DNA of 53,658 nucleotides from Candidatus Woesearchaeota archaeon (GTDB taxonomy: Archaea > Nanobdellota > Nanobdellia > SCGC-AAA011-G17 > JACPNG01): contig JAGVYI010000008.1 in NCBI GenBank assembly GCA_018303365.1, positions 1 through 53,658 on the forward strand, read 5' to 3'. This document shows, piece after piece, positions 9,444 through 34,097 of this stretch. A model generated the notes under the pieces. It did not search any database. It was not told the DNA's origin and saw only the letters and a list, made by a program, of their open reading frames with translations. The position numbers and the translations under genes were made by a program. Positions within the stretch are counted from its first letter, which is position 1, and every line of letters begins with the position of its first letter.

Positions 9444-11723
9444 CTAACCAAGGTATGTTGGTCTAGACTCTTTTACAAGAGCTGACCTCGCACTGCGAAG
9501 ATACTGTGACTCAATATCTTTATACTGTTGCACAACATCGGGAGTGACTGAAGGACGAACCTTAGAGAGGGCTTCTTCAAAGTATCTACGGGTAACCTCT
9601 TTGGCACCCATATTCTCCCGAAGAGCCAAAAGAGCAGCTTCACGGCAAAGTGCATTGAGGTCCGCACCAACAAACCCCTCTGTAAGAACTGCGAGCTCCT
9701 CAATATCAACGTCTTTTGCAAGTGGCATATCTCTAGTATGGATTTTAAGGGTTTCAAGGCGTGCAGTTTTGTCAGGAGGATGGACCATTAAAATACGGTC
9801 AAAACGGCCTGGACGCAAAAGTGCAGGGTCTAAAATATCTGGTCTGTTAGTTGCAGCAATAACAACAACATCAGTAAGCTCTTCAAGACCATCCATCTCA
9901 GATAGTATAGAATTTACAACACGTTCTGTCACTTTTGAGCCAACATCATAGCCTCTGCGAGGAGCAATTGCATCAACTTCATCAATAAAGATTATTGACG
10001 GAGCAACCTGCCTAGCTTTTTCGAAAACCTTGCGAATACCCTTCTCACTCTCACCGACATATTTATCTAAAAGAGTCGGACCTCTGACTAGGATGAAATT
10101 AGATTCGGACTCTTTGGCAATTGCCTTTGCAAGAAGGGTCTTTCCACATCCAGGAGGACCATAAAGAAGAACCCCTCGTGGAGGACGGATTCCAAGGCGG
10201 CGAAAAGCCTCTGGATGATTAAGAGGCCACTCAACAGACTCTTTAAGCTCTTGTTTAATCCCTGCAAGACCACCAACATCATCCCAGTGAATATTTGGTA
10301 TCTCAACTAAGACCTCACGCATAGCAGAAGGACGAACAGAGCGGAGAGCCTCACGAAAGTGCTGGTCATAAACCCGCAGCTTTTCGATAACTTCCTTTGG
10401 AAGAGGTTCCTTCTCCTGAAGTTTCAAGGAAGGAAGAAGACCTCGAAGAAGGTTCATCGCAGCTTCTTTGCAAAGCGAGGCAAGGTCCGCACCAACAAAC
10501 CCGTGGGTAATTTCAGCGAGTTTGGAAAGTTTCACATCTTTTGCAAGGGGCATATTGCGTGTATGAATCTTGAGTACACCTAACCTGCCAGCACGGTCTG
10601 GAACACCAATTGTAATCTCCCTGTCAAAGCGACCAGGCCTACGAAGAGCAGGGTCAAGAGCATCAGGGCGATTGGTAGCACCAATAACTATAACCTTACC
10701 CCTCCCCTTAAGACCATCCATCATAGTAAGAAGTTGGCTAACAACTCTTCGCTCAACCTCACCATGAACCTCTTCACGTTTTGGTGCAAGAGCATCTATC
10801 TCGTCAATGAAGACGATCGCAGGAGCGTTTTTTTCAGCTTCCTCAAAAAGATCGCGAATGCGTTTCTCACTCTCTCCATAAAATTTATTCATAACCTCAG
10901 GTCCATTAAGGGAAATAAAATAAGCATCAGATTCTGTTGCAACAGCCCGTGCAAGAATGGTTTTTCCCGTTCCAGGAGGACCATGTAAAAGAACTCCCCT
11001 TGGAGGGTCAATGCCAAGCTTGAGAAAAAGCTCGGGATACTTGAGAGGAATTTCAACCATTTCCCTAATTTTGCGGATCTCTTCTTCAAGACCACCAATA
11101 TCCTCATAGGTAACATCCAGAATGCGTTCTTCAGAAACCTCTACAGCTTTTGGACTAACAGAGATTTTCGTGTTTTCTGTAACTATAACTGGAGTCTTGG
11201 GAGAAGTCTCTGCAATTATAAAGCGAAGGCTACTCAGTCCGAAACCACCCATAACCTCTTGCTCAAAGACATCAAAAATATCTTCAAAGGGGCTCCCACT
11301 AAAAGTGCGGCGACGGCGTTTCGCACCACCAAGAACAACAACATCGCCTTTGAGGACCGCTCTTCCAAGAAGACCATGACGGAAAAGGCCAGGATCTGCT
11401 TGGATGGCAACACCCTTTTGAGCTGGAGCAATAGTAACAGAGCTGGCTTCTTTCACCTCAGCCTTGCTAACAAGAACAGCCTCACCAATACCAGTCTTTG
11501 CGTTACGACGCAAAATACCATCCATCCTAATAATAGCTTGACCCACATCACTCGGATAGGCACGATCAACAATGCCTACAGTAGTACGCGAGCCAACAAT
11601 GGAAATAATATCACCAGGGCGAACCCCTATATCTCGCATTGTTTCTGTATCAATCCTGACAATCCCCTTATATGCCTCTTCTTGAAGCGCTTCCATCACC
11701 TTCAGACGAACATCCTTTTTCAT
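9444..11723 (-). CDS. cdc48: CDC48/VCP (p97-like) double AAA+ ATPase
   Basis: This hexameric unfoldase extracts and unfolds proteins and may feed the 20S proteasome. The order is an N-terminal double-psi-barrel/four-stranded barrel domain (1-190), then D1 with Walker A GPPGTGKT at 248-255, Walker B IVFIDEID at 303-310 and arginine-finger segment [19 protein letters not shown]; then D2 with GPPGCGKT at 522-529, [15 protein letters not shown] and a second [19 protein letters not shown]. At 759 residues it is complete. The C-terminus is SRPTYLG. This Tyr-Leu-Gly end recurs in the PAC2 protein at 17209 and, as Tyr-Ile-Gly, in the protein at 33648. A TATA-like TTATATAA lies about 26 bp upstream of the ATG. 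Confidence 0.97.
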
Positions 11724-11744
11724 ATCTACCCCCCCAACTAAAAG

Positions 11745-11754
11745 ATTATATAAA
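11745..11754 (-). promoter_or_regulatory. TATA box of cdc48
   Basis: An A/T core reading TTTATATAAT on the minus strand is centred about 26 bp upstream of the cdc48 ATG at 11723, consistent with a leaderless or near-leaderless mRNA. It lies immediately before the stop of the next minus-strand peptide gene. Confidence 0.5.
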
Positions 11755-11759
11755 CCTGT

Positions 11760-11891
11760 TTATTCTCTGACAAGGATTATCTTGACCCGTTTGTTTGCCC
11801 ACTTCTTTGGCACAGACACCCTTGTAGATGTTGGATAAGAGTGAACAACAGCCTCAATCATCTCCTCAACATCTTCAATGATTATGCGCAT
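11760..11891 (-). CDS. 43-residue DUF2080-like peptide
   Basis: This short gene reads MRIIIEDVEEMIEAVVHSYP and then TSTRVSVPKKWANKRVKIIL, ending VRE. The layout of a charged helix, then S-x-R-V-x-V-P-K-x-W-x-x-K-x-V-K-x-x-L, is that of the archaeal DUF2080 family of small AbrB-like proteins, which are often annotated as transposon-associated. No transposase, inverted repeat or target duplication is visible here, so it is probably a stand-alone DNA-binding or antitoxin-like peptide, or a remnant. TATA-like boxes (ATTTAAGG near 11901; TATATTTAAAG near 11920) lie upstream. It precedes cdc48 on the same strand, with the cdc48 TATA box just after its stop. Confidence 0.65.
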   Translation of the reverse strand: MRIIIEDVEEMIEAVVHSYPTSTRVSVPKKWANKRVKIILVRE

Positions 11892-11958
11892 CTTATACCT
11901 ATTTAAGGTATTAATTCGGTATATTTAAAGCTTTCGAAAGAGTGGAAATCTGGCAAGG

Positions 11959-11966
11959 TTTATATG
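11959..11966 (+). promoter_or_regulatory. TATA box of radB
   Basis: TTTATATG is centred about 26 bp upstream of the radB ATG at 11989, which supports that start and a leaderless transcript. Confidence 0.5.
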
Positions 11967-11988
11967 AAGGAATTGATGATAAAAAGTA

Positions 11989-12615
11989 ATGATCTCTACA
12001 GGGATAGTGGGTTTAGACAAGGTGATTGATGGATACAGAAAAGAAATAACAATGATTTATGGAAAACCTGCAACAGGAAAAACAACTTGTTGCCTTCATG
12101 CAGCAATAGCCGCGGCGAAACAAAAGAGAAAAGTTTTCTATGTTGACACTGAAAAGGGGATGTATCTTGAAAGAGTAAGACAGCTAGATTCAAAGTGGCA
12201 AGAAATATTGGTAAATTTGTTTGTGATACAGCCAAAAAGTTTTGAAGAGCAGCGCATAGCATTGGAAAAAAGTAGAGAATTGGTGGGGGAAGGGGATGTC
12301 TTGATAATCGACACCATTGGTTTTTTTTATAGAAGAGAACTTCAACAAAACCCCCAGAAGGCAAATCAGGAGGTGGATAAACAACTGAGGGTCATAAGTG
12401 GCATTGCAAAGAAAGTGCCAGTGTTGATGACAAACCAAGTATATGAGAAAATGGATGGAACAGTGCAAAATGTTGGAGGGGAGATGTTGAAAAATTGGTC
12501 GAAAACGATTATCGAGTTAAGACAAGAAAGGGGTAGGAAACTTGTAATTGAAAAACCCCAAAAGAAAGAACTGGAATTTGAGATTAAAAAGGAAGGTATT
12601 CTGATTAACGGATAG
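11989..12615 (+). CDS. radB: RadB, RecA-family recombination protein
   Basis: The 208-residue protein is a RecA-core ATPase without the N-terminal HhH domain of RadA. Walker A is GKPATGKT at 25-32, preceded by the ISTGIVGLDKVI opening typical of RadB. Walker B is VLIIDTIGFFYR near 103-114, with an MTNQVYE segment later (L1-like). RadB is a RadA paralogue in archaea that helps homologous recombination and interacts with PolD DP1 and Hjc in some species, which is of interest because PolD and Hef are in this window. The start is supported by the TATA box. The 3' end overlaps the convergent topoisomerase gene by 11 bp. Confidence 0.9.
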   Translation: MISTGIVGLDKVIDGYRKEITMIYGKPATGKTTCCLHAAIAAAKQKRKVFYVDTEKGMYLERVRQLDSKWQEILVNLFVIQPKSFEEQRIALEKSRELVGEGDVLIIDTIGFFYRRELQQNPQKANQEVDKQLRVISGIAKKVPVLMTNQVYEKMDGTVQNVGGEMLKNWSKTIIELRQERGRKLVIEKPQKKELEFEIKKEGILING

Positions 12616-14686
12616 CCGCACGAGCCGCTTGCTGTTCACGCCATCTAACCTTAGAAGGGCAGTCGTGATTCAAACAAAGTGTCCATGGCCTTTTCCCTTT
12701 ACGAATAACCAGAACCTGGGGATAATTGCATTCACTGCAAAGCTGCTCGCTAGTCTTTATAAGACCAACCGAAGGTAAGGAGAAAGTTGTTGTGCAGGAA
12801 GGGTATTGATTACAGGCGACAAAGCGCTTTTGTTTGCCTCTAGTAAACATAATGCGAAGAGCGCCTTCTTTGCAAGAAGGACATTTGCCAACGAGTTGTT
12901 CAAGATCCCTCGTGGTGCGATGAGCCTCAGAAAGGTCATCTCCAATTGCTTTTTCATGGTCTTTAAAATGAGAGAGGGCTTTCAAAAGCACACCTTTAGC
13001 TTCCGTAAGTACCTCCGCTGGCTTCTTGACGCCAAGACGAATATTCTCCATCTCTTCTTCAAAATGTCTTGTAAGAGCCTCATCAAGTATATCAGAGCAG
13101 AAGCGCTTGAGAGTCTCAATGGTTTTAAGACCAAGCTCGGTTACTTCAATAGATTGGTTGCGAAGGTAATTGCGCTGATACAATGAATCAATAATTTGGG
13201 CCCTGGTTGCTTTCGTGCCAAGGTTGCGCTTCTCAAGCTCTTTGATAATAGAAGCAGGGGTATAACGCTTCGGAGGTTGTGTCTCTTTATCAAGTAAGGT
13301 AAGGTCAGATATCTTGAGAATATCTCCCTCCTTAAAAGGGGGAAGCTCTTCCTCCTTAAACAAAGCAAAAGGGCCATAGAAACTATGCCACCCTGACTCG
13401 GTGGTGTGTGTGCCTTTAAGAATAAAAATCTCACCTCCGACATCAAGGTTTGCAGTAACTGTTTCACGCACAGCAAGAGGAGCAAAACTGGCAAGAGTCC
13501 GACGAACAATAAGATCATAAAGCTTTGCTTCCTTAGAAGATAAATTCTTTGGGATTTCTCCTGTAGGATAAATTGCTGGATGGGCAGGATCAGTTTTCTT
13601 ACCATTATTTGGAGATAGAGATAAATAGGAAAGGATTTTTTCGCAAAATGGACGATAGGTTGCTTGGTTGGAAAGAGAAGAAATAATCTCACGGTAACCG
13701 ATAGAAGGGGGGAGTTGGTTTGAGCTGGTGCGAGGATAAGAAATAAGTGCCCCCGTGTAAAGGTTTTGCGCAATAGCAAGAGTATCTTTAGGATTTATCT
13801 TGAGAGTCTTGTAGGCCTCAAGCTGAAGTGCGGTCAAGTCAAAGGGGTGTGGAGGACTTTGAGAGAAAGATTTCTTCTGAAGAGAAGAAACGAAAGCATC
13901 GCAACCCCTTGCATTGCTATATGCTGTATCAGCCAGGGATTTCTTCCAGAATTTATCCTCTTTATGAAGAGCGATGAATTTCTTTCCCCTGAAAAGCCCA
14001 TGAATTTCAATCTGCCAGAAAGGCACCGGAACAAAACTATGGATCTCTCGTTCACGCTCACTCAGAAAAGCTAAAGCCGGACCCTGAACACGACCGGAAG
14101 ACAAAATTTTGAACATTCCACTTGAATGTTTAATAGAAAGGGTGAGTGCCCTAGAAAGGTTGATGCCCCAAAAGTAATCCAGAAAATGCCTTGTCTCCCC
14201 CGCATAGGCCTGCCCCCAGTCAAGATGGGGTGAACGCCCATCATAAGAAGAGAGTATTTCTTGTTTTGTAAGTGTCGAAAACTTCATGCGAGAAGCATCT
14301 TCTTTGTTACATGCATAGCGAACGACGTTAAGGCCAATGACTTCTCCCTCTAAGTCATAGTCACAAGCCACAGTAAAACTATCCGCCTTCTTGGCAAGAT
14401 GCTTTATTGTCTGTAGGTATTTGGTAGTAAAAGAAGAAGAGCGGCCGATACCCCCCACCTCTTTCCAAGAAATGTCAAAAACAGGATAGACCCAGCCGGA
14501 TTTGGTAACTTCTGAAAGGCCATAAAGGTGACCTACAGCACAGGCAACAAGGATATTATCCCCCTTGTGGGTGATTTCATAGTAAGGAACACCCTTATAT
14601 GCCTTCTTGATGGGTTTTGTGTCAGCAAGAGCCTGAGCAATTTTCTCAGAAGCAGAAGGCTTCTCAGCAATAATGAGGTTAAGCAT
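12605..14686 (-). CDS. topA: DNA topoisomerase, type IA
   Basis: This single-strand-passing topoisomerase relaxes negative supercoils or decatenates. It has an N-terminal TOPRIM domain (LIIAEKPSASEKIAQAL at 4-20, with DYDLEGEVIG supplying the metal acids near 110), the central gate with LSSGRVQGPAL, and the catalytic tyrosine in ISYPRTSSNQLP near residue 317. The C-terminus has Zn-finger clusters (CPSC...CNQYPSC, then CSEC...CLNHDC). At 693 residues it is complete. The sequence sits between the Topo I and Topo III forms, and the gene symbol follows usual archaeal usage. A TATA-like TTTATATAA lies about 25 bp upstream. Confidence 0.93.
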   Translation of the reverse strand: MLNLIIAEKPSASEKIAQALADTKPIKKAYKGVPYYEITHKGDNILVACAVGHLYGLSEVTKSGWVYPVFDISWKEVGGIGRSSSFTTKYLQTIKHLAKKADSFTVACDYDLEGEVIGLNVVRYACNKEDASRMKFSTLTKQEILSSYDGRSPHLDWGQAYAGETRHFLDYFWGINLSRALTLSIKHSSGMFKILSSGRVQGPALAFLSEREREIHSFVPVPFWQIEIHGLFRGKKFIALHKEDKFWKKSLADTAYSNARGCDAFVSSLQKKSFSQSPPHPFDLTALQLEAYKTLKINPKDTLAIAQNLYTGALISYPRTSSNQLPPSIGYREIISSLSNQATYRPFCEKILSYLSLSPNNGKKTDPAHPAIYPTGEIPKNLSSKEAKLYDLIVRRTLASFAPLAVRETVTANLDVGGEIFILKGTHTTESGWHSFYGPFALFKEEELPPFKEGDILKISDLTLLDKETQPPKRYTPASIIKELEKRNLGTKATRAQIIDSLYQRNYLRNQSIEVTELGLKTIETLKRFCSDILDEALTRHFEEEMENIRLGVKKPAEVLTEAKGVLLKALSHFKDHEKAIGDDLSEAHRTTRDLEQLVGKCPSCKEGALRIMFTRGKQKRFVACNQYPSCTTTFSLPSVGLIKTSEQLCSECNYPQVLVIRKGKRPWTLCLNHDCPSKVRWREQQAARAAIR

Positions 14687-14730
14687 ATAAGGACAAGGAA
14701 ATAAAGTTATATAAAGATTCCTCAGAAAAT

Positions 14731-15330
14731 CTAGATCTCTATAATCGTTCCAGTACGGCCAACGTCAACAACTTTAGTTGAATCAATTGACTCCTCAAGA
14801 CCCTCACATTCATGAATATGACCACAAAAAAGAATATCTGGCTTAAATAACCTAATTGCATGTCTAAGCCCCTTCCCGCCTGGAAAAGAGAGACGCTCGA
14901 TAAGACTGCCAGCAGGATGAAGGTGCGTTACCATGATCTTTTTAGGCAAGTAAGCAATGCGGGAAAAGGCTCCTTTGAGTAAGTCCAGCATTTCATTATC
15001 AGAAAGGAAAGTATGAGGGCCAATATTAGCTCCGCCGCAACCAAAGATACCAACATCCCCATAACGAACAGAAGAACCATGAATATTCTTCACTTTATAG
15101 ATGTCAGCAAGGGTGTTTATGCCTGCAAGAGTATCATGATTTCCAGGAATTAAGAGAACTTTCTTGTTAAGTAAAATAAAAGGACGCAAAATATTTTTGG
15201 CCTCCTGGTCAAAATGGGTAATGTCCCCGCACAAAATCACAACATCTACATTCTCAAGAGCAGCGCGCTCAGCTAAGCGAGAAGCAAGAATACCACTTCC
15301 ATGAAGGTCACTTGCAGCAAGAATTTTCAT
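14731..15330 (-). CDS. Calcineurin-like metallophosphoesterase
   Basis: The 199-residue phosphoesterase has all the metal motifs in order: ASDLHG (D8, H10), CGDITH, PGNHD, THLHP and CGHIH. The family includes cyclic phosphodiesterases, exonuclease-like SbcD relatives and YfcE-type enzymes; the substrate cannot be read from sequence. A TTTAAA box at 15352-15357 is centred about 25 bp upstream of the ATG, so it is probably transcribed alone. It is flanked by the cis-prenyltransferase gene upstream and topA downstream on the same strand. Confidence 0.85.
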   Translation of the reverse strand: MKILAASDLHGSGILASRLAERAALENVDVVILCGDITHFDQEAKNILRPFILLNKKVLLIPGNHDTLAGINTLADIYKVKNIHGSSVRYGDVGIFGCGGANIGPHTFLSDNEMLDLLKGAFSRIAYLPKKIMVTHLHPAGSLIERLSFPGGKGLRHAIRLFKPDILFCGHIHECEGLEESIDSTKVVDVGRTGTIIEI

Positions 15331-15360
15331 AAAAAAGAAGGTGAAAAGCGGTTTAAAAAC

Positions 15361-16062
15361 TTACCGTCCAAACCGCCGCTTTCGTTGAGAATAAGATTCT
15401 AAGGCCAGTAGAAAATCCTCCTTCTCAAACTCAGGCCACATTTTAGGGCAAAAGTATAGTTCAGCATAAGCCCCTTGCCAAAGTAAAAAACCAGATGTCC
15501 GCTGTTCACCCGAAGTGCGGATAATTAAGTCAGGTTCAGAGGGAAGGTAAGTATTTCGGGTAAAAACATCCTCATTAATCCCTTCAACAGAAAGGGTACC
15601 TGCGCGAACGGACTCAGCAAGTCGCTTAGTAGCATCAATGATCTCAGCACGCCCGCTATAGGCCATTGCAAAGGTGACAAAATAGGTCTTATGGGCAGCT
15701 GTCCTTACCATAAGGTTGTGCATTACCTCTTGTAGTGGTAAAGGGAACAAGGAAAGTCTTCCTATAAATTGAACGCGTATATCTTCTTTTTCAAGTACAG
15801 GATCTTTAAGAAGGCGGGAGAGTTCAGATATGAAAATATCCATTAAACGGTCAAACTCTTCTTTCGACCTAGAGAAATTTTCAAGAGAGAAGGCATAAAA
15901 AGTAACTTCGGGGATGCTGTACTCCCTGCACCAGGAAAGAAGATGTTCAATCTTCTTTGCCCCCCACTCATGACCTTTCCAAGGTTTGAGCATGAGCCGT
16001 CTGGCAAAACGGCGGTTACCGTCAAGAATAACACCAATATGACGAGGAACACGAGATAGCAT
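15361..16062 (-). CDS. uppS: Cis-prenyltransferase (undecaprenyl/polyprenyl diphosphate synthase)
   Basis: The enzyme adds isopentenyl units in cis to make the long polyprenyl carrier lipid that in archaea holds glycans for N-glycosylation. This fits the sequon-rich surface protein at the left edge. I start at ATG 16062 (MLSRVPRHIGVILDGNRRFA), because the family motif HIGxILDGNRRFA with the catalytic Asp lies at residues 8-20; the longer open frame is a run of Phe/Leu-rich codons in the promoter region. Other motifs are KGHEWGAKKI, TFYAFSLENFSR, PDLIIRTSGEQRTSGFLLWQ and AELYFCPKMWPEF. It is 233 residues, normal. Confidence 0.92.
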   Translation of the reverse strand: MLSRVPRHIGVILDGNRRFARRLMLKPWKGHEWGAKKIEHLLSWCREYSIPEVTFYAFSLENFSRSKEEFDRLMDIFISELSRLLKDPVLEKEDIRVQFIGRLSLFPLPLQEVMHNLMVRTAAHKTYFVTFAMAYSGRAEIIDATKRLAESVRAGTLSVEGINEDVFTRNTYLPSEPDLIIRTSGEQRTSGFLLWQGAYAELYFCPKMWPEFEKEDFLLALESYSQRKRRFGR

Positions 16063-16187
16063 AAAAATCACCAAAACAATAACTGAGAGGGTAAAAAACG
16101 CTTTAAAAATATTTTTGTTTGACCTAAAAATGCCGAAATAGAAAAATTTTAAAGTAAGGACTTGAAAATATAAGAAAAAAACCAAAG

Positions 16188-16240
16188 GTTTAAATATAGA
16201 CAATCGAACAAAAAAGCAGAAGAAGTAAAGAGGGGTGATA
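16188..16240 (+). promoter_or_regulatory. TATA box and Shine-Dalgarno-like site of the wHTH gene at 16252
   Basis: The 189-bp divergent gap between uppS and the winged-helix gene holds a TATA-like TTTAAATATAG (near 16190) and a purine stretch containing GGGGTGAT, complementary to the archaeal 16S 3' end, 12 bases before the ATG at 16252. A leadered mRNA is implied, unlike most of its neighbours. Confidence 0.4.
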
Positions 16241-16251
16241 GGGGGAAAGAA

Positions 16252-16524
16252 ATGGTAAAAAAGAAAGACATCTTCGGAGTTTTTTTTAGAACAAAACCTG
16301 CAATGACACTCGTCGCCCTTCGAAAAAGCACAAAAAACCGCTACGGCAGTGTTCTGGCAAAAGAGGTTGACTGCACTTATTCTCATGCAGTGAAAATTCT
16401 ACAGGAAATGGAAAAAGCAAAGCTTGTTGAATTCGAAAAACAAGGCAGAATAAAGGTGATAAGGCTAACAGAAAATGGGAACAAAATAGCAGAGCATGTC
16501 GAAAAGATTAGAAACCTGCTGTAA
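16252..16524 (+). CDS. Winged-helix DNA-binding protein
   Basis: The 90-residue protein is a single winged helix. After a basic start (MVKKKDIFGVFFRTKP) comes a helix-turn-helix (RYGSVLAKEVDCTYSHAVKILQEMEKAKLVEFE) and a beta-wing (KQGRIKVIRLTENGNKIAEHVEKI), as in small archaeal MarR/ArsR-like regulators. No effector domain is present. The target is unknown; the divergent gap to uppS makes self-control or uppS control possible. It is followed 5 bp later by a second small gene, so the two form one operon. Confidence 0.75.
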   Translation: MVKKKDIFGVFFRTKPAMTLVALRKSTKNRYGSVLAKEVDCTYSHAVKILQEMEKAKLVEFEKQGRIKVIRLTENGNKIAEHVEKIRNLL

Positions 16525-16529
16525 GACCA

Positions 16530-16850
16530 ATGGCATTTAGTAAAAGTTTTCCGAAAACAAAAGATAAATATCCGGTTTGGGAAGAAGTTTACCTCTCAAA
16601 AGATGAGGAGATTGAAGAAGAGAAAAGAGCAAGAGGGGAAAATGTAAACTTGATGAAAGACTGCCTTAAAGATGCAAGGCAGGTGCTCAAACAAGAAAAT
16701 ATAAAAGAAGAAGCAAATGTTGTGAGGATGGCTGTGGCTTTTTTTGAAAAGATAGCGTCCCACCAAGTATATTATAAGGAAGCAAAGGCAAAAGAAAAGT
16801 TTGATACTTCAATCAAACAAGATGTCGAGAAAGAGACTCGACAGTCGTAA
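16530..16850 (+). CDS. Conserved DPANN-type hypothetical protein
   Basis: The 106-residue protein is soluble, helical and rich in Lys/Glu, beginning MAFSKSFPKTKDKYPVWEEVYLSKDEE. I have a general memory of similar openings (SKxFP, YPxWEEVYL) among uncharacterised DPANN proteins, but no function is known to me. It follows the winged-helix gene by 5 bp and probably shares its transcript. Its last 38 bp overlap the convergent TOPRIM gene. The helical middle (MKDCLKDARQVLKQENIKEE) could mediate protein-protein contacts. Confidence 0.65.
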   Translation: MAFSKSFPKTKDKYPVWEEVYLSKDEEIEEEKRARGENVNLMKDCLKDARQVLKQENIKEEANVVRMAVAFFEKIASHQVYYKEAKAKEKFDTSIKQDVEKETRQS

Positions 16851-17136: not shown

Positions 17137-17179
17137 ATGATAAAAAAACAAACTCAAGAATATAAATGTTGGGAAAAAG

Positions 17180-17187
17180 TATATAAA
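17180..17187 (+). promoter_or_regulatory. TATA box of the PAC2 gene
   Basis: TATATAAA is centred about 26 bp upstream of the ATG at 17209. It selects that ATG over the longer frame starting at 17137 and implies a leaderless mRNA. The divergent TOPRIM gene uses a separate ATTTATA element (17160-17166), so this gap holds two boxes. Confidence 0.55.
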
Positions 17188-17208
17188 CCAAAAGGAAAAA
17201 GGAATAAG

Positions 17209-17910
17209 ATGAAAGTTGAACTGGTTCAAAGACCGAAAAGCCCCACAATTCTTGAAGGGTTTCCAGGGTTTGGATTGGTAGGAACAATTGCAACAGAGTT
17301 TCTTATAAAACACCTTAAGGCAAAACAAATCGGGAAAATAATGAGTAGGCATTTGATGCCGATAGCAGCAATACATGAAGAGAGTGTAGTTGACCCACTG
17401 GGAATATTCTATGACAAAAAATATAATCTTGTAATTCTTCATGCCCTGAGTAGCTTAAAGTCCCTTGAATGGGATATAGCAGAAGCAACGACAAAGTTGT
17501 GTAAGGAATTAAAAGCAAAAGAAATTATAAGTCTTGAAGGAATTAGCAGCCAAACAGGAGAGCTCAAGACATACTACTTCACAAGAGATCCGAAGAGGAA
17601 AAAAAGCTTTGAAAAAATAGGTCTTGAACCGCTAAAAGAAGGGATTGTCATGGGAGTGACAGGTGCCCTATTGCTGAAAAACAAAAACACCTCTTGCATA
17701 TTCGTTGAAAGCAAGGTTGGAATCGCAGATAGCCTAGCTGCAGCAAAGGTTGTAGAGATTCTTGATAAATACCTCAACCTCAAGGTAGACTACCAGCCGT
17801 TAATCAAAGCGGCAGAGAAGTTTGAAAGAGCGCTCAGGCAGACCATGGAAAAAGCAAATGAAATGCAACCCCCACAAGAGAAAATGATTAAGCCAGACTA
17901 TCTTGGCTGA
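17209..17910 (+). CDS. PAC2-family protein (archaeal proteasome-assembly-chaperone homologue)
   Basis: The 233-residue protein opens MKVELVQRPKSPTILEGFPGFGLVGTIA, the hallmark of the PAC2 superfamily (PbaA/PbaB-like, COG2047). Members fold like nucleoside phosphorylases and include chaperones that bind 20S proteasome alpha-subunits. After the globular domain comes a helix (LIKAAEKFERALRQTMEKA) and a flexible tail ending KPDYLG. The final Tyr-Leu-Gly matches the end of CDC48 in this window. The start is set by the TATA box. The PAN ATPase lies about 0.6 kb downstream on the other strand, so the setting is consistent with a proteasome role, which remains an inference. Confidence 0.85.
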   Translation: MKVELVQRPKSPTILEGFPGFGLVGTIATEFLIKHLKAKQIGKIMSRHLMPIAAIHEESVVDPLGIFYDKKYNLVILHALSSLKSLEWDIAEATTKLCKELKAKEIISLEGISSQTGELKTYYFTRDPKRKKSFEKIGLEPLKEGIVMGVTGALLLKNKNTSCIFVESKVGIADSLAAAKVVEILDKYLNLKVDYQPLIKAAEKFERALRQTMEKANEMQPPQEKMIKPDYLG

Positions 17911-17991: not shown

Positions 17992-18525
17992 TTAGGCATA
18001 AGTTTCAAGAATTCTATGAGTAGGTCCTGAAGGGCGCAAAATACTAGAATAAAGACAGAAAGAAGAGACTTGAAAAGAAGTGGAAGGGGATTCTAGAGAA
18101 GAAAAGGTCTCTGAAAACGTTTTTGGATCTTTTAGTAGACGAACACGGGCTAAGGTGAGGTGTGCAGAAAAAGAAGTAGTTGTAGGGAAAAGATCAAGAA
18201 GAGTTTCATCAATCTGGCGTTGCAGAGAAATTAGCGGCTTCTCAGGAGAAAGACCAACCCACAGTACACGAGGGTAGCGGTTGCCAGGAAAAAGACCTAG
18301 AGACGAAATGCTTAGAGAGAAAGGGATAAAAGAAATTTGGGAAAGTCGCGAAGAAATTATATCCTGCTGAAGAGCGTCAACCTCGCCAAGGAACTTTAAA
18401 GTTAGGTGAAGGTTCTTTTTTGCAACAAGGGATAGCTTAGCTGGAAGAGAACGAAGAGACTTCTGGAAAGAAAAAAGAATATCTCCAACTGTAATGGGAA
18501 GAGGAACCGCAACAAAGAGTCTCAT
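17992..18525 (-). CDS. thpR: RNA 2',3'-cyclic phosphodiesterase (2H family)
   Basis: The 177-residue enzyme is a 2H phosphoesterase (LigT/ThpR) with its two HxT motifs at HLT 40-42 (HLTLKFLGEV) and HLT 123-125 (HLTLARVR). It opens 2',3'-cyclic phosphates on RNA ends and is often linked to tRNA processing. The start [10 protein letters not shown] is typical. It begins four bases inside the upstream pan gene (overlapping stop and start), so pan and thpR form one transcript. Functional coupling to the proteasome is not expected; this is probably genome compaction. Confidence 0.9.
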   Translation of the reverse strand: MRLFVAVPLPITVGDILFSFQKSLRSLPAKLSLVAKKNLHLTLKFLGEVDALQQDIISSRLSQISFIPFSLSISSLGLFPGNRYPRVLWVGLSPEKPLISLQRQIDETLLDLFPTTTSFSAHLTLARVRLLKDPKTFSETFSSLESPSTSFQVSSFCLYSSILRPSGPTHRILETYA

Positions 18526-19649
18526 CCGAACATGGTGAGGTGTTCTGAAGGAGAAATCATACGAAACTTGTTAATGGCGCTGGAAAAGTCATCTTGAGTA
18601 ACAAATGTGCGTCCATCACGAAGAGCAAAATATCCTGCTTCAGTACAAACACCCTTGATCTCTGCACCACAAAATCCCTCTGTACGTGGGACTAGTAAAG
18701 AAATATCAACTCCGCTTAAAGACATTCCTCTAGTGTAAATAGAAAAAATATTTTTACGGCTTAAGGGGTCAGGCAAAGGTACTTCAATAAGCCTATCAAA
18801 ACGACCTGGGCGCAAAAGCGCCTTGTCTATAACCTCAAGCCTATTGGTAGCACCAATAACCTTAACCCCATCTAAAGACTTGAACCCATCCAGCTCAGTA
18901 AGAAGCTGCATAAAGGTTCGTTGCACCTCTCTTTCCCCAGAAGCCCCAACATCAATACGAGTTGAAGCAAGAGCGTCAATCTCATCAATAAAGATAATAG
19001 AAGGAGATTTCTCACGGGCCATGGAGAAAAGGTCCTTGACAAGTTTTGCACCATCGCCGATGAATTTTTGATTTAACTCAGATGCAGTAACTTGGATGAA
19101 AGTAGCATTTGTTGAGTGAGCAACTGCCTTTGCAAGAAGAGTCTTTCCAGTACCCGTAGGACCGTGCAGAAGAATTCCTTTGGGAGGTTCAATACCGATT
19201 TGTGAGAAAAGTTGAGGATTGATAAGGGGGAGTTCAACAACTTCTTGGAGATCACGAATAGGGTCTTTCAATCCCCCGACCTGATCCCAAGATACAGAAG
19301 GTTTCTCTAAAATCACAAAGGACTCAATGTCAAAATGGTTCGTTTGTTCAATCTTATCCACAATTGTAAGTGAATGTTGCTCAACAAGGACAGTGTCGTA
19401 GGGGGAGAGTTGTGGACGGAGACTATCCAGAACCTCGACAAGAAAATAATTCCCATTAGGGAGACGAATAACTGCATGCTTACCAACAAGCTTCCTGACC
19501 TCACAGACAAGAAGAGGTTTCTTCTTAAATTTACCAATCTCGCTCTTAAGGTAAGAAACAGTTGCTTTCAAAACACGGTTTTCTGAATGAGGGTCAAGAC
19601 CAGATGAGAAAAGGTTATAGTCATAATCTGAACTGACGCGGGTCTCCAT
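18522..19649 (-). CDS. pan: Proteasome-activating nucleotidase (PAN)
   Basis: This AAA+ hexamer unfolds substrates into the 20S proteasome. The ATG at 19649 ([10 protein letters not shown]) is preferred over the TTG one codon earlier. The order is a short N-terminal segment with weak coiled-coil ([17 protein letters not shown]), an OB domain ([28 protein letters not shown]), then the AAA+ core with Walker A GPTGTGKT at 163-170 (Thr replaces the common second Pro), Walker B IIFIDEID and [20 protein letters not shown]. The N-terminal coil is shorter than in classical PAN. The C-terminus is TMFG; the usual Hb-Tyr-X docking motif is replaced by Met-Phe-Gly. Length is 375 residues. Confidence 0.92.
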
Positions 19650-19714
19650 CAAGGATCTTCCAAAAACTATTGAAAAGAAAAAGGGATAGTTGTTTATAAA
19701 TTTTTCTCTGTAAA

Positions 19715-27388: not shown

Positions 27389-28596
27389 AAACCAAGACCC
27401 TCCCGCAACATATCATTGATTCTTGGAACAGTTGAGGGAGGGAGAGCAAGACAGATTTCACGCGTTCGCCCATAACGACCTTTGCTTATGATCTTTGCAT
27501 TAATTATCCCAAGCATGTCAAGTTCAGCAATGATATCCGAGACTCTGCGCTGGGTTAAAGGACGAAGTCCAGATTGAAAACAGGCGTTCTTATAAATTTC
27601 GTAAACATCTCCAGTGAAAACAGGTTTGTTTGTATTATGTATACAAACTGTAAAGATAGAGTAAAGTGTGAGTTTAAATTGCTTTGGTTGTGTAGTAACA
27701 ATATCAATGATGCGGTCACGTTCAATTTTCTCTTCGGCAAAGTCAATATGGGTTGTGAGAACTTTGAGTTCATTTTTACGCTCGGCAAGTTCACCAGCAA
27801 CGCGTAAAAGCTCAAGAGCCCGTCGAGCATCGCCATGCTCTCTTGCAGCATAGGCAGCGCATTTCTCAATCACACCTTCACCAAGGACCCCCTCGGGAAA
27901 GGCTATTGAGGAGCGTTGTCGTAAGATACTCTGGAGCTGAATGGCGTTATACGGTGGGAAAACAACCTCCTCTTCACTTAAGCTGCTCTTAACTCTAGGA
28001 TCAAGGTTATCAGTAAAAACAAGATCATTCGAGATACCAATGATAGATATCTCACTATTTTTTAGTTCGGAATGGAGACGAGTAAGGTTATAGAGAATCT
28101 CGTCTCCGGCCTTATCAACAAGTTGGTCAATCTCATCAAGAACGATGATGAGGAGTATCTTCTCTTTATCGAGTGCTTTAATAAAATACTTATAAATTTC
28201 ATCTGTCGGAAGACCCGTCGCCGGAACATCTACCCCAAACTCACGTGTAAGTTGGGCAACCAGACGGTACTCTGTGTCTGCAACCCTTCTCAATTTACAA
28301 TTGAGGTAAAATATTTTAAGTGGAAGACTGCGTTTTTCTGCAAGGGCAAGTATATTTCTTGTAACGTAAGTTATAGTGATACTCTTCCCCGTCCCAGTCT
28401 TACCGTAGATGAATATATTTGACGGTTTCTCAAGACGAAGTGAAGGGGCTAATACGCCAGCAAGAGTCTCGATTTGTTCTTCCCGATGGGGGAGCTCTGT
28501 GGGGGTGTAGTTCCCCTGCAACGCTTTCTTATTAATGAAGAGGGGTTTCTTGAAAATATATTGCTCAAAGAAATCAACAATCCCCCCCTGACCCAT
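27385..28596 (-). CDS. cdc6: Orc1/Cdc6 replication initiator
   Basis: This AAA+ origin-binding protein loads MCM. Walker A is GKTGTGKS near residue 65, Walker B is IIVLDEIDQL near 147-156, sensor 1 GISNDL and arginine region DPRVKSSL follow, then HGDARRALELLRVAGE (sensor 2 helices) and a C-terminal winged helix (PLTQRRVSDIIAELDMLGIINAKIISKGRYGRTREICL) that binds ORB elements. At 403 residues it is complete. It is the first gene of the cdc6-polB-polC run and is preceded by a 495-bp AT-rich gene-free stretch with ORB-like sequences, the classical place for an archaeal origin. Confidence 0.95.
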   Translation of the reverse strand: MGQGGIVDFFEQYIFKKPLFINKKALQGNYTPTELPHREEQIETLAGVLAPSLRLEKPSNIFIYGKTGTGKSITITYVTRNILALAEKRSLPLKIFYLNCKLRRVADTEYRLVAQLTREFGVDVPATGLPTDEIYKYFIKALDKEKILLIIVLDEIDQLVDKAGDEILYNLTRLHSELKNSEISIIGISNDLVFTDNLDPRVKSSLSEEEVVFPPYNAIQLQSILRQRSSIAFPEGVLGEGVIEKCAAYAAREHGDARRALELLRVAGELAERKNELKVLTTHIDFAEEKIERDRIIDIVTTQPKQFKLTLYSIFTVCIHNTNKPVFTGDVYEIYKNACFQSGLRPLTQRRVSDIIAELDMLGIINAKIISKGRYGRTREICLALPPSTVPRINDMLREGLGL

Positions 28597-28650
28597 AAAA
28601 TAAAAATTATTTGAAGGTTTATTTAAAGATTACCCTATTCAAATATCAAG

Positions 28651-28677
28651 ACCCCCACCATTACTTCCATTGGAAAC
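28651..28677 (-). promoter_or_regulatory. ORB-like element 1
   Basis: On the minus strand this reads GTTTCCAATGGAAGT and, after AATGGT, GGGGG. The 11-bp dyad TTCCA-N-TGGAA (28665-28675) and the neighbouring G-run follow the Orc1/Cdc6 origin-recognition-box pattern. On the plus strand the dyad also continues as TGGAAACTAAAG, close to the other half of the published ORB consensus. Confidence 0.6.
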
Positions 28678-28954
28678 TAAAGATACTTAAGGACGGAATT
28701 ACAGAATCATAAAGATTAGGTGACCTATAATAATGGAAATAAAAGATATTATTAAACTATGTGTATAATAAAATATATATATAAAATACACTCATACACT
28801 ATAATAATATTTAAAAAATAAATTTAAATAAACATTAAAGCTGGGTCTTGGATTAGATGAAATACAAATAAATTAAATAAACAGTCACCCCTTTTTAAAG
28901 AATATGTGGGTTGACCGATTCTTTCTATAGCAAACAAGAGCATAATTGAAAAGT

Positions 28955-28982
28955 AGTTCCAAATGAAATGAAGGTGTGGGGG
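28955..28982 (+). promoter_or_regulatory. ORB-like element 2 (inverted relative to element 1)
   Basis: The plus strand reads GTTCCAAATGAAATGAAGG, then TGTGGGGG. By eye it aligns with the reverse complement of element 1 over about 28 bp with roughly three quarters identity and the same G-rich end. The dyad is weaker than in element 1. Confidence 0.45.
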
Positions 28983-29091
28983 TTCTTATTATAAACTAAT
29001 TTTTTTATTTCCAAGGGGTGATTAGGTTGAAATAATATATTATTAATAGATAGTAACAAAATATTTTATAAAAGCACAAAAGATTAAACAT

Positions 29092-29409
29092 ATGAAGGAA
29101 TTTATATTCTATATCGTTATTGGATTTATCCTTACTATGGTTACCATAGAAACGCTTAAACACCATATCTTAAGAAAAGTAATCAGATCCGTTGTTCTTT
29201 TGATAATCATCATCGCAATTTTCATTGGTATGAGTGGGTACTTAATAGAAAGTAAGCTTTTAAAAACGGATAATAAATGGGTAATAAGTGGAGCTGCCAT
29301 TTTCGAAAAGGCAAAGAACCTAAACAAAAAGGATTTCATAGATTTTAACTTACAACCAGAAAAGTTTATAAACAAGTTGGAGGTTGATGTGGCTAATGGT
29401 AGAAGATGA
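29092..29409 (+). CDS. Hypothetical membrane protein
   Basis: The 105-residue protein has two adjacent hydrophobic helices (EFIFYIVIGFILTMVTIETL and SVVLLIIIIAIFIGMSGYLI) joined by a basic loop (KHHILRKVIR), then a soluble Lys-rich tail. I do not recognise it. A TATA-like ATTTTATAAAA lies about 27 bp upstream of the ATG. It is the first rightward gene from the candidate origin and overlaps the following PRC-barrel gene by 14 bp, so the two are translated together. Confidence 0.65.
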   Translation: MKEFIFYIVIGFILTMVTIETLKHHILRKVIRSVVLLIIIIAIFIGMSGYLIESKLLKTDNKWVISGAAIFEKAKNLNKKDFIDFNLQPEKFINKLEVDVANGRR

Positions 29410-29659
29410 TAAGAAGTATTCAAGACAGATAATAGGAAAGACTGTTGTAACAAAGTCAGGAAAGAAATTTGGTGAGGTTGGAAATATAAGTTTTGACGCA
29501 AGGACTGGAGAATTAATACAAATTATTTTAAAGAATCCAACCCCCTTAGCTACCAGCGCGGATCTTGAGAAAGATCAAAAGGGGAGTCTTACAATACCTT
29601 ACTCTGCCGTTATTGCTGCAGGTGATTTTGTTGTGGTTTCTGAAGAAGATATTATATAA
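29396..29659 (+). CDS. PRC-barrel domain protein
   Basis: The 87-residue protein is a single PRC-barrel (IIGKTVVTKSGKKFGEVGNISFDARTGELIQIILKNP, then IPYSAVIAAGDFVVVSEEDI). In archaea, small PRC-barrel proteins such as CdpB link FtsZ, SepF and other division proteins; others act in RNA processing. I choose ATG 29396 (MVEDDKKYSRQ), which matches the usual short lead before the barrel. A second PRC-barrel gene occurs at 43771. A role in cell division is possible but not shown by the context. Confidence 0.8.
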   Translation: MVEDDKKYSRQIIGKTVVTKSGKKFGEVGNISFDARTGELIQIILKNPTPLATSADLEKDQKGSLTIPYSAVIAAGDFVVVSEEDII

Positions 29660-29728
29660 TGGAAGAGATTTCTTATTAAAAATCAACTTTAAAAAGGATT
29701 GACACAATGTTCTAACAAATTTATAAAA

Positions 29729-31582
29729 ATGGTACAAAGAACTGCAAAAAACATAAAGGTCCCAGATAGGGTGGTTGACCAGGTTATAGGGCAGGATGAA
29801 GCCGTAAACCTAGTCAAGAAAGCAGCAAAACAGAGGAGAAATGTTCTTCTTATAGGAGACCCCGGGACTGGAAAGTCAATGATAGGTCAGGCTCTCGCAG
29901 AATTACTTCCCAAAGAAGAACTTACAGACACACTCTCTTTTCCAAACCCATCAGACGAAAATGTGCCTTTAATCAGGACAGTTCCTAAGGGTCAAGGGAA
30001 AGATATAATATCTAAAGCAAGGATGCAAGTACTTTCAACTACACGGAGTCAGAATGTAGTGCTCTTCATTGTGATTTTCGTAATCACTTTGTTCCCTTGG
30101 TGGTTATGGAAGACAGGGAGGATACCAGATGTTGTTTATGCTGCATCGCTCATATCTTCAATGATAGCAACAATAGGGTTTCTTTTTTTCATCAATATAA
30201 GTAAGAGAATGAAAATGTCAGACCATATTAAGATCCCTAAACTCCTTGTTGACAATGCAGACAAGAAAATACCCCCCTTTATTGATGCCACTGGTGCGCA
30301 TGCAGGGGCCTTGCTTGGAGATGTCTTACACGATCCACTGCAGTCAGGGGGGCTGGGTACCCCCTCTTATGAACGCTTAGTAGCAGGGATGATCCATAGA
30401 GCAAATGGAGGTGTGCTCTTTATTGATGAAATAGCCACCCTCTCACCAAGGTCCCAGCAAGAGCTCCTTACAGCGATTCAAGAGAAAAAGTATCCAATAA
30501 CTGGTCAGTCAGAACGTTCATCAGGTGCTCAAACAAGGACTGAACCAGTCCCCTGTGACTTTATTCTTGTAGCGGCAGGCAACATAGATACAGTGAAGAA
30601 CATGCACCCTGCGTTAAGAAGCCGCATAAGGGGGTATGGGTATGAAGTCTACATGAATGAAACAATGGAGGATAATGAAGATAATCGTAAGAAAATTGCA
30701 CAGTTTATTGCACAGGAAGTGGCCAAGGATAAGAAAATACCCCCCTTTAACGACACGGCGGTAAAAGAAATAATAACTGAAGCTAAAAGGCGTGCTGGAA
30801 GTTCAGGCAAGCTAACTCTTCGTCTACGAGAATTAGGTGGGTTAGTGAGGGCGGCAGGAGATTTGGCTTTAGAGCAACAAGAGAAAGAAGTCAAGGAGAT
30901 ATGTGTGGTTCAAGCAAAGAAGTTGGCAAGGACCCTTGAGCAACAGATAGCAGACCGTTACATAGAGAATAAAAAAAAGTATGAAGTAATTGTAACGAAA
31001 GGTCACCGTGTTGGGAGGGTTAATGGTCTTGCTCTAATTGGTTCAGGATCCGCCTTCTCAGGGATAATCCTTCCAATTGAGTCAGAAGTGGCCTTGGGGG
31101 GGAAGAAGACGGAGTTTGTGGCAACAGGAAAGCTAGGAGAGATAGCTAAAGAGGCTGTAAAAAATGTATCAGCAATAATTCTAAAGTCCTTCGGGGAAGA
31201 TATCAAAGAACGCTACGACATTTTTATACAGTTTCTCCAGACTTATGAAGGGGTAGAGGGAGATTCAGCATCAATAGCTGTTGCAACTGCAATTATATCT
31301 GCACTAAAAGGGGTTCCAGTAAGGCAAGACCTTGCCATGACTGGTTCATTGTCCGTAAGAGGTGAAGTTCTCGCGATAGGGGGGGTAACAACAAAAATTG
31401 AAGCCGCTCTTGAAGCAGGTATAGGAGAAGTGATTATTCCAAAAGCAAACCTTCAAGACATTGTCCTGTCAAAAGATAAAGAAGGAAAGATAAAGATAAT
31501 TCCGGTAACCAATATTAAAGAGGTGTTACGCCACGCTCTTATTTGGAAGGGTAGGGAAGGTATATTGAAGAAGTTAATCTGA
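29729..31582 (+). CDS. lonB: LonB, membrane-bound archaeal Lon protease
   Basis: This ATP-dependent membrane protease is anchored by two helices inserted in the AAA+ module. The order is Walker A GDPGTGKS near residue 46, the membrane hairpin ([18 protein letters not shown] and [19 protein letters not shown], about 110-155), Walker [13 protein letters not shown], and the C-terminal Ser-Lys protease domain with EGDSASIA (catalytic Ser near 513) and the catalytic Lys in [14 protein letters not shown]. All catalytic residues are present. I start at ATG 29729 ([19 protein letters not shown]) instead of the TTG at 29699. It overlaps the convergent winged-helix gene by 9 bp. Confidence 0.93.
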
Positions 31583-31834
31583 AACAAGTTTTCCATACTC
31601 CTGGTATGCTGTATCGGTTAACCTCCAACATTTCTTCCTGGAGTTCCTTTTCCCGACATGTCTGACAAGACCCTGACACTCGAGAATAGATAAAAGGCGC
31701 CTCACAAACTCCTTATCCCGTCCAAGTTCAATAGCTATGCTACTTGTGTATAAAGGTTTAAGGCCAGCTTCATAGAGGGTGTAGAGGATGGCTTCCTTTA
31801 CTTTCCTTTCTGTACTTTGAGAGACTCTTGACAT
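31574..31834 (-). CDS. Small winged-helix protein
   Basis: The 86-residue protein is a single winged helix ([50 protein letters not shown], then the wing [19 protein letters not shown]). It resembles small archaeal DNA-binding regulators. It lies 3' to 3' with lonB, overlapping 9 bp, and divergent from argS across 99 bp, so argS control is possible in principle. The target is unknown. Confidence 0.72.
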
Positions 31835-31933
31835 CTAAGACTGAGAAAAGTCCAACTATAAGTGATTTGCGGTTAAGCGCTAATATTCTATCCTCCTAAA
31901 ACCTTAAATATCTTGTACAAGAATTGGAGAGAA

Positions 31934-33610
31934 ATGTTTGAAAAAGATATAACCCGGACCTTAGCAAAAAAGTTAGGTAAGACCTATAAAGAAGTGGAGG
32001 GGTTTTTGGAGCAGCCTCAAGATTCCTCTTTTGGGGATATTTCCTTTCCTTGTTTTGTAGTTGCAAAGGAACAAAAAAGATCTCCTTCAGAGCTTGCAGC
32101 GCAGCTCAAGAAGAGTATTGCGCTTCCAAAAGGAATAGAAAATATAGAATCAAGCGGTCCATATTTGAATTTTTTTATAGATTACTCATCCCTAGCAGAA
32201 ACCATCTTTCAAGAGACAAGAAGAAAAAAGAGTAAGTTCGGACATACGAATAAGGGAAAAGGGGAGGTTGTGGTTATTGAGTTTTCTTCACCAAACATAG
32301 GTAAACCTTTTGGAATCGCTCATTTGCGCTCAACAGTTATAGGTAATAGCCTAAGCAACATTTACGCTTCGCAAGGGTACAAAGTGGAAAGGGTTAACTA
32401 TTTGGGAGATTGGGGTACGCAGTTCGGAAACTTAATGTGCGCGTTTCAAATGTGGGGTGATGAGAAAGAATTAAAGAAGAATTCCATAAGGCACCTTTTG
32501 AGTTTGTATATCAAATTTCATGCTGAAGCAGAAAAAGATGAAGCTTTAAAAAAGAAAGGCAAAGAGTGGTTTGTGAGGTTAGAGGGGGGAGATAAGAAAG
32601 CAAAGGGAATGTGGAAAAAGTTCTGCGGCCTCAACTTAAAAGAATTCAAAAGAATTTATCACCTTCTGAACATAAAAATAGACCACACCATCGGCGAGGC
32701 TTTCTACGAACCAATGCTTAAGAAGACGATCGAATTCTATAGGAACAAAGGATTGTTAAAAGAAAGCGATGGAGCCCTTATCCTTGAGTACCCAGATCTA
32801 CCCCCCGCGATTGTACAAAAAAAGGATGGGACCACAATTTATCTTACAAGAGACCTCGCAGCAGCAAAACACAGAAGGGATATCTTCAAGTTCAAAAAGA
32901 TGCTCTATGTAGCGGACGCAAGGCAAACCCTTCATTTTCAGCAACTTTTCAAGGCCTTGGAAATTGCAGGGTTCAAGTGGGCAAGACAATGTGAGCATGT
33001 CCCTTTTGGGGTCATGAAATTTAAAGGAGAACCCCTAGCGACTAGGAAGGGGTTCATCTTTTTAGAAGATGTTCTTCTAAAAGCCGTAAGCAAAGTAGAA
33101 TCTATCATAGATGAAAAGAACCCCTCTCTAGGCCATAAGGAAGAAGTGGCAAGGCAAGTTGCTTTTGGTGCTGTAATTTACTGGGACTTGAACAGCGACA
33201 GAGTGAGAGATGTTGTTTTTGATTTGGACCAAGTGCTTAACTTTGAAGGGGATACAGCCCCTTATATACAATATACCTCCGCACGTCTCTCAAGTATTCT
33301 CGCAAAGGCAAGCCCTCCCAGGAGAGTAGATTCCTTCCTCCTAAACTCTCAGGAAGAAAAGAAAATTATTGGTTCCTTAGCGAAGTTTGAGAGTGTAATT
33401 TGGGACGCAAAGATGCACAATAAGCCACACCTTCTTACAAACTACCTCTCTGCTCTTGCTCAAGAGTGTAACAATTTTTATAATAAACACCCTGTTCTGG
33501 TAAATGAAAAAGACTTACGGGCAGCAAGACTGCACCTCATCTTTGCAGCAAGGCAGGTATTAATAAATGGGTTGAGTTTACTAGGGATTCACTCCCCATT
33601 TCAGATGTAA
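31934..33610 (+). CDS. argS: Arginyl-tRNA synthetase
   Basis: This class I enzyme charges tRNA-Arg. It has the N-terminal additional domain (MFEKDITRTLAKKLG, DSSFGDISFPCFVVAKEQKRSP), the HIGH-type motif FSSPNIGKPFGIAHLRS near residue 118, VNYLGDWGTQFGNL, the YLTRDLAAAKHR segment, the MKFKGEPLATRKGFIFLEDVL region that replaces KMSKS, and the anticodon-binding helical domain (APYIQYTSARLSSIL). It ends in PFQM. At 558 residues it is full length. ATG 31934 is chosen because a CTTAAATAT box is about 27 bp upstream; the TTG at 31913 would fall on that box. Confidence 0.95.
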   Translation: MFEKDITRTLAKKLGKTYKEVEGFLEQPQDSSFGDISFPCFVVAKEQKRSPSELAAQLKKSIALPKGIENIESSGPYLNFFIDYSSLAETIFQETRRKKSKFGHTNKGKGEVVVIEFSSPNIGKPFGIAHLRSTVIGNSLSNIYASQGYKVERVNYLGDWGTQFGNLMCAFQMWGDEKELKKNSIRHLLSLYIKFHAEAEKDEALKKKGKEWFVRLEGGDKKAKGMWKKFCGLNLKEFKRIYHLLNIKIDHTIGEAFYEPMLKKTIEFYRNKGLLKESDGALILEYPDLPPAIVQKKDGTTIYLTRDLAAAKHRRDIFKFKKMLYVADARQTLHFQQLFKALEIAGFKWARQCEHVPFGVMKFKGEPLATRKGFIFLEDVLLKAVSKVESIIDEKNPSLGHKEEVARQVAFGAVIYWDLNSDRVRDVVFDLDQVLNFEGDTAPYIQYTSARLSSILAKASPPRRVDSFLLNSQEEKKIIGSLAKFESVIWDAKMHNKPHLLTNYLSALAQECNNFYNKHPVLVNEKDLRAARLHLIFAARQVLINGLSLLGIHSPFQM

Positions 33611-33647
33611 TAAAAATCTTTATAAAACGTTAGAAAGAAGGATTATT

Positions 33648-34097
33648 ATGCCCATTGTTGGATTTCAGTTTGATAAGGTTTCAGCAGAAAAGAAATCAAA
33701 AGTAAAATCTAAATTGGAGGTGAAAAATAGTATCAATATTAAAGGCATCGAATTTGAGTCTGTTGCCCTAACAAGAAGTAAAGACTCTTTGCTCCGTTTT
33801 AATTTCTCCTTTCACACTGAGTTTAGTCAAGGTCTTGGGGATGTTGTTTTAGAGGGTCACCTCTTATACTATGATGAAGAGAAAAAACTCAAAGATTTAA
33901 AAAGGTCCTGGGATAATAAGGAGGCAATGGACCCAAAACTAATGGCACGTATCTTAAATCACATCTTAATTCGTTGTAACATAAAGACCCTTGTTCTTTG
34001 TGAAGAAGTTAATCTCCCCCCCCACTTGCAGATACCAACAATCTCTCCAACCAAGCAAAATATTTCTAAAACTGCAGTGCACGACTATATCGGTTAG
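33648..34097 (+). CDS. Conserved hypothetical protein with YIG tail (possible SecB-like fold)
   Basis: The 149-residue protein opens MPIVGFQFDKVSAEKKSKVK and follows a beta-rich pattern with alternating charged strands (RFNFSFHTEF, GDVVLEGHLLYYDEE) and a helical end (MDPKLMARILNHILIRCNIKTLVL). I recall similar uncharacterised proteins in DPANN genomes; a SecB-like fold is my guess. A Pro/Ser/Thr-rich linker leads to a tail HDYIG. The last residues Tyr-Ile-Gly match the Tyr-Leu-Gly ends of CDC48 and the PAC2 protein, suggesting the same docking partner. A CTTTATAAAA box lies about 27 bp upstream. Confidence 0.7.
   Translation: MPIVGFQFDKVSAEKKSKVKSKLEVKNSINIKGIEFESVALTRSKDSLLRFNFSFHTEFSQGLGDVVLEGHLLYYDEEKKLKDLKRSWDNKEAMDPKLMARILNHILIRCNIKTLVLCEEVNLPPHLQIPTISPTKQNISKTAVHDYIG

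Follow-up and report, generated by a model that had tools for sequence, protein, structure and literature searches.

A conserved Tyr-hydrophobic-Gly C-terminus on CDC48, PAC2 and a predicted SecB-fold protein of Woesearchaeota, a probable lineage form of 20S proteasome docking tail

The window, that is, the whole stretch of DNA analyzed here (53,658 nucleotides), corresponds to the entire contig C8 of a Woesearchaeal genome of 702 kb, which comprises 22 contigs and is 90.86% complete. It encodes three proteins with a Tyr-hydrophobic-Gly C-terminus together with the proteasome-activating nucleotidase PAN. The corresponding features are:

9444..11723, minus strand: CDC48, a VAT/p97-type double AAA+ ATPase of 759 aa (TIGR01243, 1060.7 bits)
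9447..9455, minus strand: CDC48 C-terminal tripeptide Tyr-Leu-Gly, read from the sequence
17209..17910, plus strand: PAC2-A, a PAC2-family, PbaA-like protein of 233 aa (PF09754, E 3.5e-32; 3wz2, E 6.5e-24)
17899..17907, plus strand: PAC2-A C-terminal tripeptide Tyr-Leu-Gly, read from the sequence
18522..19652, minus strand: PAN (PRK03992, 457.7 bits against a curated cut-off of 500)
18525-18533, minus strand: PAN tail MFG, HbYX-type by its orthologue tails
33648..34097, plus strand: putative SecB-fold protein of 149 aa, a candidate 20S/CDC48-linked holdase (AlphaFold2 and PDB fold matches)
34056..34085, plus strand: its variable, low-confidence linker, residues 137-146 (pLDDT < 50; gapped, unconserved columns)
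34086..34094, plus strand: its C-terminal tripeptide Tyr-Ile-Gly, read from the sequence and kept as Y-[IVT]-G in 25 of 50 distinct orthologues

The TIGR01243 score of CDC48 exceeds the cut-off of 802.65, and the protein has the CDC48/VAT architecture, namely a CDC48 N domain (PF02359) and two AAA stretches. The structure matched by PAC2-A, 3wz2, is P. furiosus PbaA. Inspection of the four C-termini confirms the endings given in the original prediction, i.e., RPTYLG for CDC48, KPDYLG for PAC2-A, HDYIG for the protein at 33648 and LTMFG for PAN. Below, P1 is the last residue and P3 the third from the end, and Y-Phi-G denotes Tyr, a hydrophobic residue and Gly.

When all six frames of the entire genome were scanned for Y-[FLIMV]-G directly before a stop codon, 38 places were returned, and the reversed control pattern returned 44. 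With the reading frame checked at each of the 38 places and an ORF cut-off of at least 80 aa, only five ORFs in the 702-kb genome carry this ending versus ~0.5 expected (Poisson P ~1e-4), where the expectation derives from the composition of the window's proteins (~0.0006 per protein, ~0.5 in 800 proteins). These ORFs are CDC48, PAC2-A, the 33648 protein and two proteins outside the window, PAC2-B and P5, which the earlier count of three proteins had missed. The same procedure was applied to GW2011_AR20 (G041), a complete genome (CP010426.1) of a different family from the window's genome, where six ORFs were recovered: orthologues of exactly these five and one AAA+ ATPase. The additional carriers are:

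G000:C7:9884-10651: PAC2-B, a second PAC2 paralogue with tail NYIG, found with the same PF09754 model
G000:C13:20387-20872 (L192:1888-2373): P5, 161 aa, tail KYIG, encoded immediately 5' of an adenylate kinase-like gene
G041:C1:637396 (L247:3-905): a single-AAA ATPase with tail KLNYLG, in GW2011_AR20

Listed genome-wide, as the original prediction had proposed, these endings prove rare, and the tail is kept among orthologues when C-termini are compared across DPANN relatives. That the endings are alike through composition or a coding artefact is vanishingly improbable and was rejected on the genome-wide ORF-end count and the independent recovery in GW2011_AR20: as a raw 12-base pattern the ending is not more frequent than its reversed control, but it is enriched ~tenfold at real gene ends, both genomes yield the same orthologues, and more than 100 sequences carry the tails. 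The shared ending is real, not chance.

All tails were sampled from DPANN genomes, and because homologous tails share ancestry the counts of conservation are not independent events. Every one of the 69 distinct CDC48 sequences of the class ends in Y-x-G (28 YFG, 21 YMG, 10 YLG, 7 YYG and one each of YVG, YTG and YSG), with Phe or Tyr at P2 in 35/69 and mostly Met or Leu in the remainder. A second DPANN set consists of 48 CDC48 sequences from the genomic neighbourhood of an Aenigmatarchaeota record; here P3 is Tyr in 48/48, P2 is mostly Thr or Val, and P1 is Gly in 40 and sometimes Q, N, S, E, T or R, such that only the P3 Tyr is strict. PAC2-A ends in Y-Phi-G in 27 of 29 intact tails, a count that leaves out a thirtieth sequence, the frame-broken G073 fragment. 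The two exceptions, MYG (G103) and LYG (G112), are canonical HbYX tails at the homologous position, and CDC48 in these two genomes still ends in YFG and YLG. PAC2-B carries Y-Phi-G in 21/21 sequences, and the Aenigmatarchaeal PAC2 tail is YIG. P5, for which Pfam and NCBIfam searches returned no family, has orthologues (~20-37% identical) with tails of mostly YFG, YIG, YHG or TIG. Residues P4-P8, upstream of the tail, vary in every family, as do the linkers. More weight lies on the recurrence of the tail in families that are unrelated, on the variability of the linkers and on the natural swaps.

The original prediction noted that PAN ends in TMFG instead of the usual Hb-Tyr-X motif. This ending stands, but 17/17 PAN orthologues end in [MIV]-[FYV]-G (MFG in most, MYG and IYG in two), and PAN was rejected as a member of the Y-Phi-G code; its tail is of the HbYX type.

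Separate observations concern the AAA+ motors. The first AAA domain of CDC48 is interrupted in frame by an insert that contains intein splicing and LAGLIDADG domains at L156:1778-5506 and L172:6382-10506, and long CDC48 frames also occur in several other genomes. Eight genomes (G029, G036, G041, G050, G053, G063, G066 and G072) contain the 20S and yield PAN-like matches to CDC48 only; there, with no separate PAN-like match seen, CDC48 may serve as the sole or principal motor of the 20S. For GW2011_AR20, where the PAN query matched CDC48 only, the AAA domain of the tailed single-AAA ATPase scores far below the cut-off against the models of PAN and of the anti-phage ATPase IteA, and this AAA+ protein is a possible replacement motor.

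The Y-Phi-G ending can be compared with two described docking codes. Like HbYX, which is found on PAN, Rpt2/3/5, PbaB and archaeal Cdc48/VAT, it is a terminal tripeptide carried by both AAA+ motors and PAC2-type proteins; each tail runs up to the stop codon, with a free carboxylate, known 20S partner families bear it, a flexible linker and a conserved alpha pocket are common to both, and one and the same PAC2-A position holds Y-Phi-G in most genomes and Phi-Y-G in two. In contrast to HbYX, Tyr lies at P3, P2 is Phe, Met, Leu, Ile or Val, and P1 is almost always Gly. The HbYX arrangement of Tyr at P2 with a hydrophobic residue at P3 is absent from the CDC48, PAC2 and 33648 tails listed above and is found only in the MYG and IYG of PAN, the MYG and LYG of PAC2-A in other genomes and the YYG of some CDC48s. 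YFG, YMG, YLG and YIG endings would escape searches restricted to strict HbYX, such as ProEnd (PMC11475706).

The second code is the Y-Phi motif of the human 20S, where Tyr is required at P3 and Phe or Tyr at P2, and where the P3 Tyr bonds alpha-E25 and the carboxylate bonds K66 (PMC8907193). The archaeal tails share with it a Tyr at P3 (all CDC48s of both sets, all PAC2-B tails and 27/29 of PAC2-A), a bulky P2 and a free carboxylate at P1, and the YFG and YYG forms of CDC48 fit it. They differ in that P2 is also aliphatic (Phe or Tyr in only about half of the class CDC48s, Ile in the 33648 family, and Thr in the second DPANN set), in that P1 is Gly versus the Ala or Thr preferred by the human 20S, and in that the tail is not confined to monovalent partners but is borne by hexameric and PAC2-type ones as well. 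A Tyr third from the end, first proposed as a variant docking code, is therefore unusual in an archaeal tail but is not a new principle, since human Y-Phi already has it; the ending belongs to a known code as one of its variants. Its novelty lies in the strict terminal Gly, in the aliphatic P2 and in its use across the lineage.

Two of the families that carry the tail are known to bind the 20S: CDC48 and PAC2 homologues, as well as PAN, are established 20S partners (PMC3605417, PMC4192671), and the C-terminal three residues of PbaB, an archaeal PAC2 homologue, are required for 20S binding and activation (PMC3605417). The two paralogues described here resemble PbaA/PbaB in their PAC2 domain and putative tail-borne docking, and have sequence relatives with structures 3wz2, 3gaa and 3vr0; P. 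furiosus PbaB ends in Gly-Tyr-Leu versus Y-Phi-G on both paralogues. Because the PAC2-A exceptions MYG and LYG sit at the same position, HbYX and Y-Phi-G forms appear to interchange, and such an exchange of the two bulky residues at one homologous position is expected if both forms enter the same pocket. All 26 alpha subunits inspected from these genomes carry the same alpha-pocket residues P17, G19, L21, V24, E25, K66 and G80 (numbered as in A. fulgidus/T. acidophilum). In the archaeal 20S, alpha-V24Y puts a Tyr in the Hb pocket and the gate opens (PMC12352868). The carriage of the tail by known 20S-binding families, the swap to HbYX and the invariant pocket make the 20S alpha-ring the likeliest hub. 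We infer that the Y-Phi-G tail is a lineage form of the C-terminal 20S-docking motif (probability about 0.8), with the 20S probably serving as the hub of the CDC48 and PAC2 tails. The earlier proposal of a shared tail for one hub, possibly the 20S ring, is supported to this extent: the tail is under selection, and the 20S is its most economical hub.

It is quite unlikely that the tails bind another hub, e.g., an adaptor that recognizes CDC48 C-termini in the way that PUB/PUL domains read the tail of p97, and that PAC2 and the SecB-like protein would use too. There is precedent in the eukaryotic Cdc48 cofactors Ufd2 and Ufd3, which bind its unstructured C-terminal tail (PMC4192671), and PAN, the dedicated 20S motor, ends differently. 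PAC2 homologues, however, are known to bind the 20S through this very tail, the MYG/LYG swaps of PAC2-A and the MYG/IYG of PAN follow the code already known for the 20S, conservation of the alpha pocket is complete, and no candidate adaptor was seen.

Two further features of the proteasome genes were observed. Beside the conserved pocket, alpha position 33 is Gln in 26/26 Woesearchaeal subunits versus Arg in A. fulgidus, and alpha Gln33 could tune tail preference. Extra weak-scoring proteasome-fold (PF00227) frames lie beside normal alpha/beta genes in G034:C21, G017:C3, G079:C24, G091:C64 and G095:C150.

The 33648 protein belongs to a family present in 118/145 relatives. The relatives of this protein in named genomes are almost all from Woesearchaeota or Nanoarchaeota, with one Aenigmatarchaeota record, which places the window in that group of DPANN archaea. 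Pfam and NCBIfam searches returned no family for it, and its profile found no match among PDB sequences; hence, a fold search was performed. AlphaFold2 on 36 sequences predicts a beta-beta-beta-beta-alpha-alpha fold (pLDDT 86.3, pTM 0.76) and a disordered linker that leads into the tail, and the 14 best Foldseek matches in the PDB are all SecB or SecB-like Rv1957 with a probability of 0.99-1.00, albeit with modest E values (1.6e-3 to 1.2e-2) and TM scores (0.38-0.52). Four strands followed by two helices, as predicted here, are also the arrangement of E. coli SecB, Rv1957 and archaeal Mj0357. In contrast to SecB, the family has no Pfam SecB match (0/36 members up to E = 1) and carries a proteasome-type tail or neighbours CDC48. 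We therefore assign the protein, by its modelled fold, as a putative SecB-fold protein and not as a proven SecB. Archaea are without SecA (PMC4361572).

Half of the family carries the tail, with 25/50 distinct members ending in Y-[IVT]-G (23 YIG, 1 YVG, 1 YTG) behind linkers that differ in length and sequence. Tail-less members end soon after the fold or in unrelated residues, often Lys-rich, and since they make up half of the family, the tail is not essential to the protein. In other Woesearchaeota, the family gene immediately precedes CDC48, with both on one strand and a gap of 36-185 bp, in 11/35 named loci, and 10 of these 11 CDC48-adjacent genes lack the tail (Fisher P 0.004, uncorrected for shared ancestry). 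In tailed lineages, the gene is usually found near LonB and arginyl-tRNA synthetase, as in the window. Gene order and tail together support a link of the protein to CDC48.

The neighbourhood that recurs around the tailed family comprises, in the window, a PRC-barrel protein, the LonB protease and arginyl-tRNA synthetase (29384-33610). On its other side, the 33648 gene adjoins one or two coiled-coil proteins with an apparent helix-turn-helix end (34177-35549), and coiled-coil neighbours of the family amount to 35 ORFs in 18/35 loci.

Export or antitoxin folding is the general task of SecB proteins, and together with the tail-less half of the family this leaves room for a general SecB-like holdase or export chaperone whose tail is a non-functional dock, alike by chance or descent. 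We consider this unlikely, as YIG, with single YVG and YTG variants, is found behind linkers of differing length and sequence, the protein belongs to a set of just five or six with this ending in a genome, and the family gene directly precedes CDC48 in nearly a third of the loci. The 33648 protein is instead best read as a SecB-like holdase that would deliver clients to the CDC48/20S machinery, and is probably a 20S/CDC48 partner. The initial suggestion of a candidate proteasome partner needs one adjustment, in that only half of the family has the tail. As a functional analogy, bacterial Bpa/PafE (GQYL tail, PMC6017811) is likewise a non-ATPase partner with a C-terminal Tyr dock, although its fold is unrelated to that of the 33648 protein and its Tyr is penultimate.

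In the mechanism that we propose, Y-Phi-G tails would act as interchangeable plugs for the pockets between 20S alpha subunits. The terminal carboxylate offered to alpha-Lys66 would be that of Gly, P2 would hold the hydrophobic residue, and the P3 Tyr would fill the Hb pocket near alpha-Glu25. CDC48, as the motor, would feed unfolded substrate, and the two PAC2 proteins would assemble or activate the 20S, each docking by Y-Phi-G as their relatives do by HbYX. The SecB-fold protein, probably an oligomeric holdase, may hold unfolded clients on the same dock and present them at the alpha-ring, either directly or with CDC48. The tail-less SecB-fold protein, often encoded directly upstream of CDC48, could act via CDC48, which is always tailed.

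We know of no SecB-type chaperone that works with proteasomes, and the literature searched contained no reports on Woesearchaeal proteasome tails. Whether DPANN archaea possess an undescribed chaperone-proteasome branch, in which a SecB-fold holdase docks the 20S by Tyr-Ile-Gly, or acts beside CDC48, and P5 uses the same dock, is in our judgement evenly balanced. The findings provide a signature that can be searched for, P3 Tyr with Gly at the end, to detect proteasome partners across a large branch of uncultured archaea, and two new candidates for such partners, the SecB-fold 33648 protein and P5. They also offer natural cases, from within one lineage of archaea, of a P3-Tyr preference that had until now been described for the human 20S, with natural tail variants that make the role of each tail position testable.
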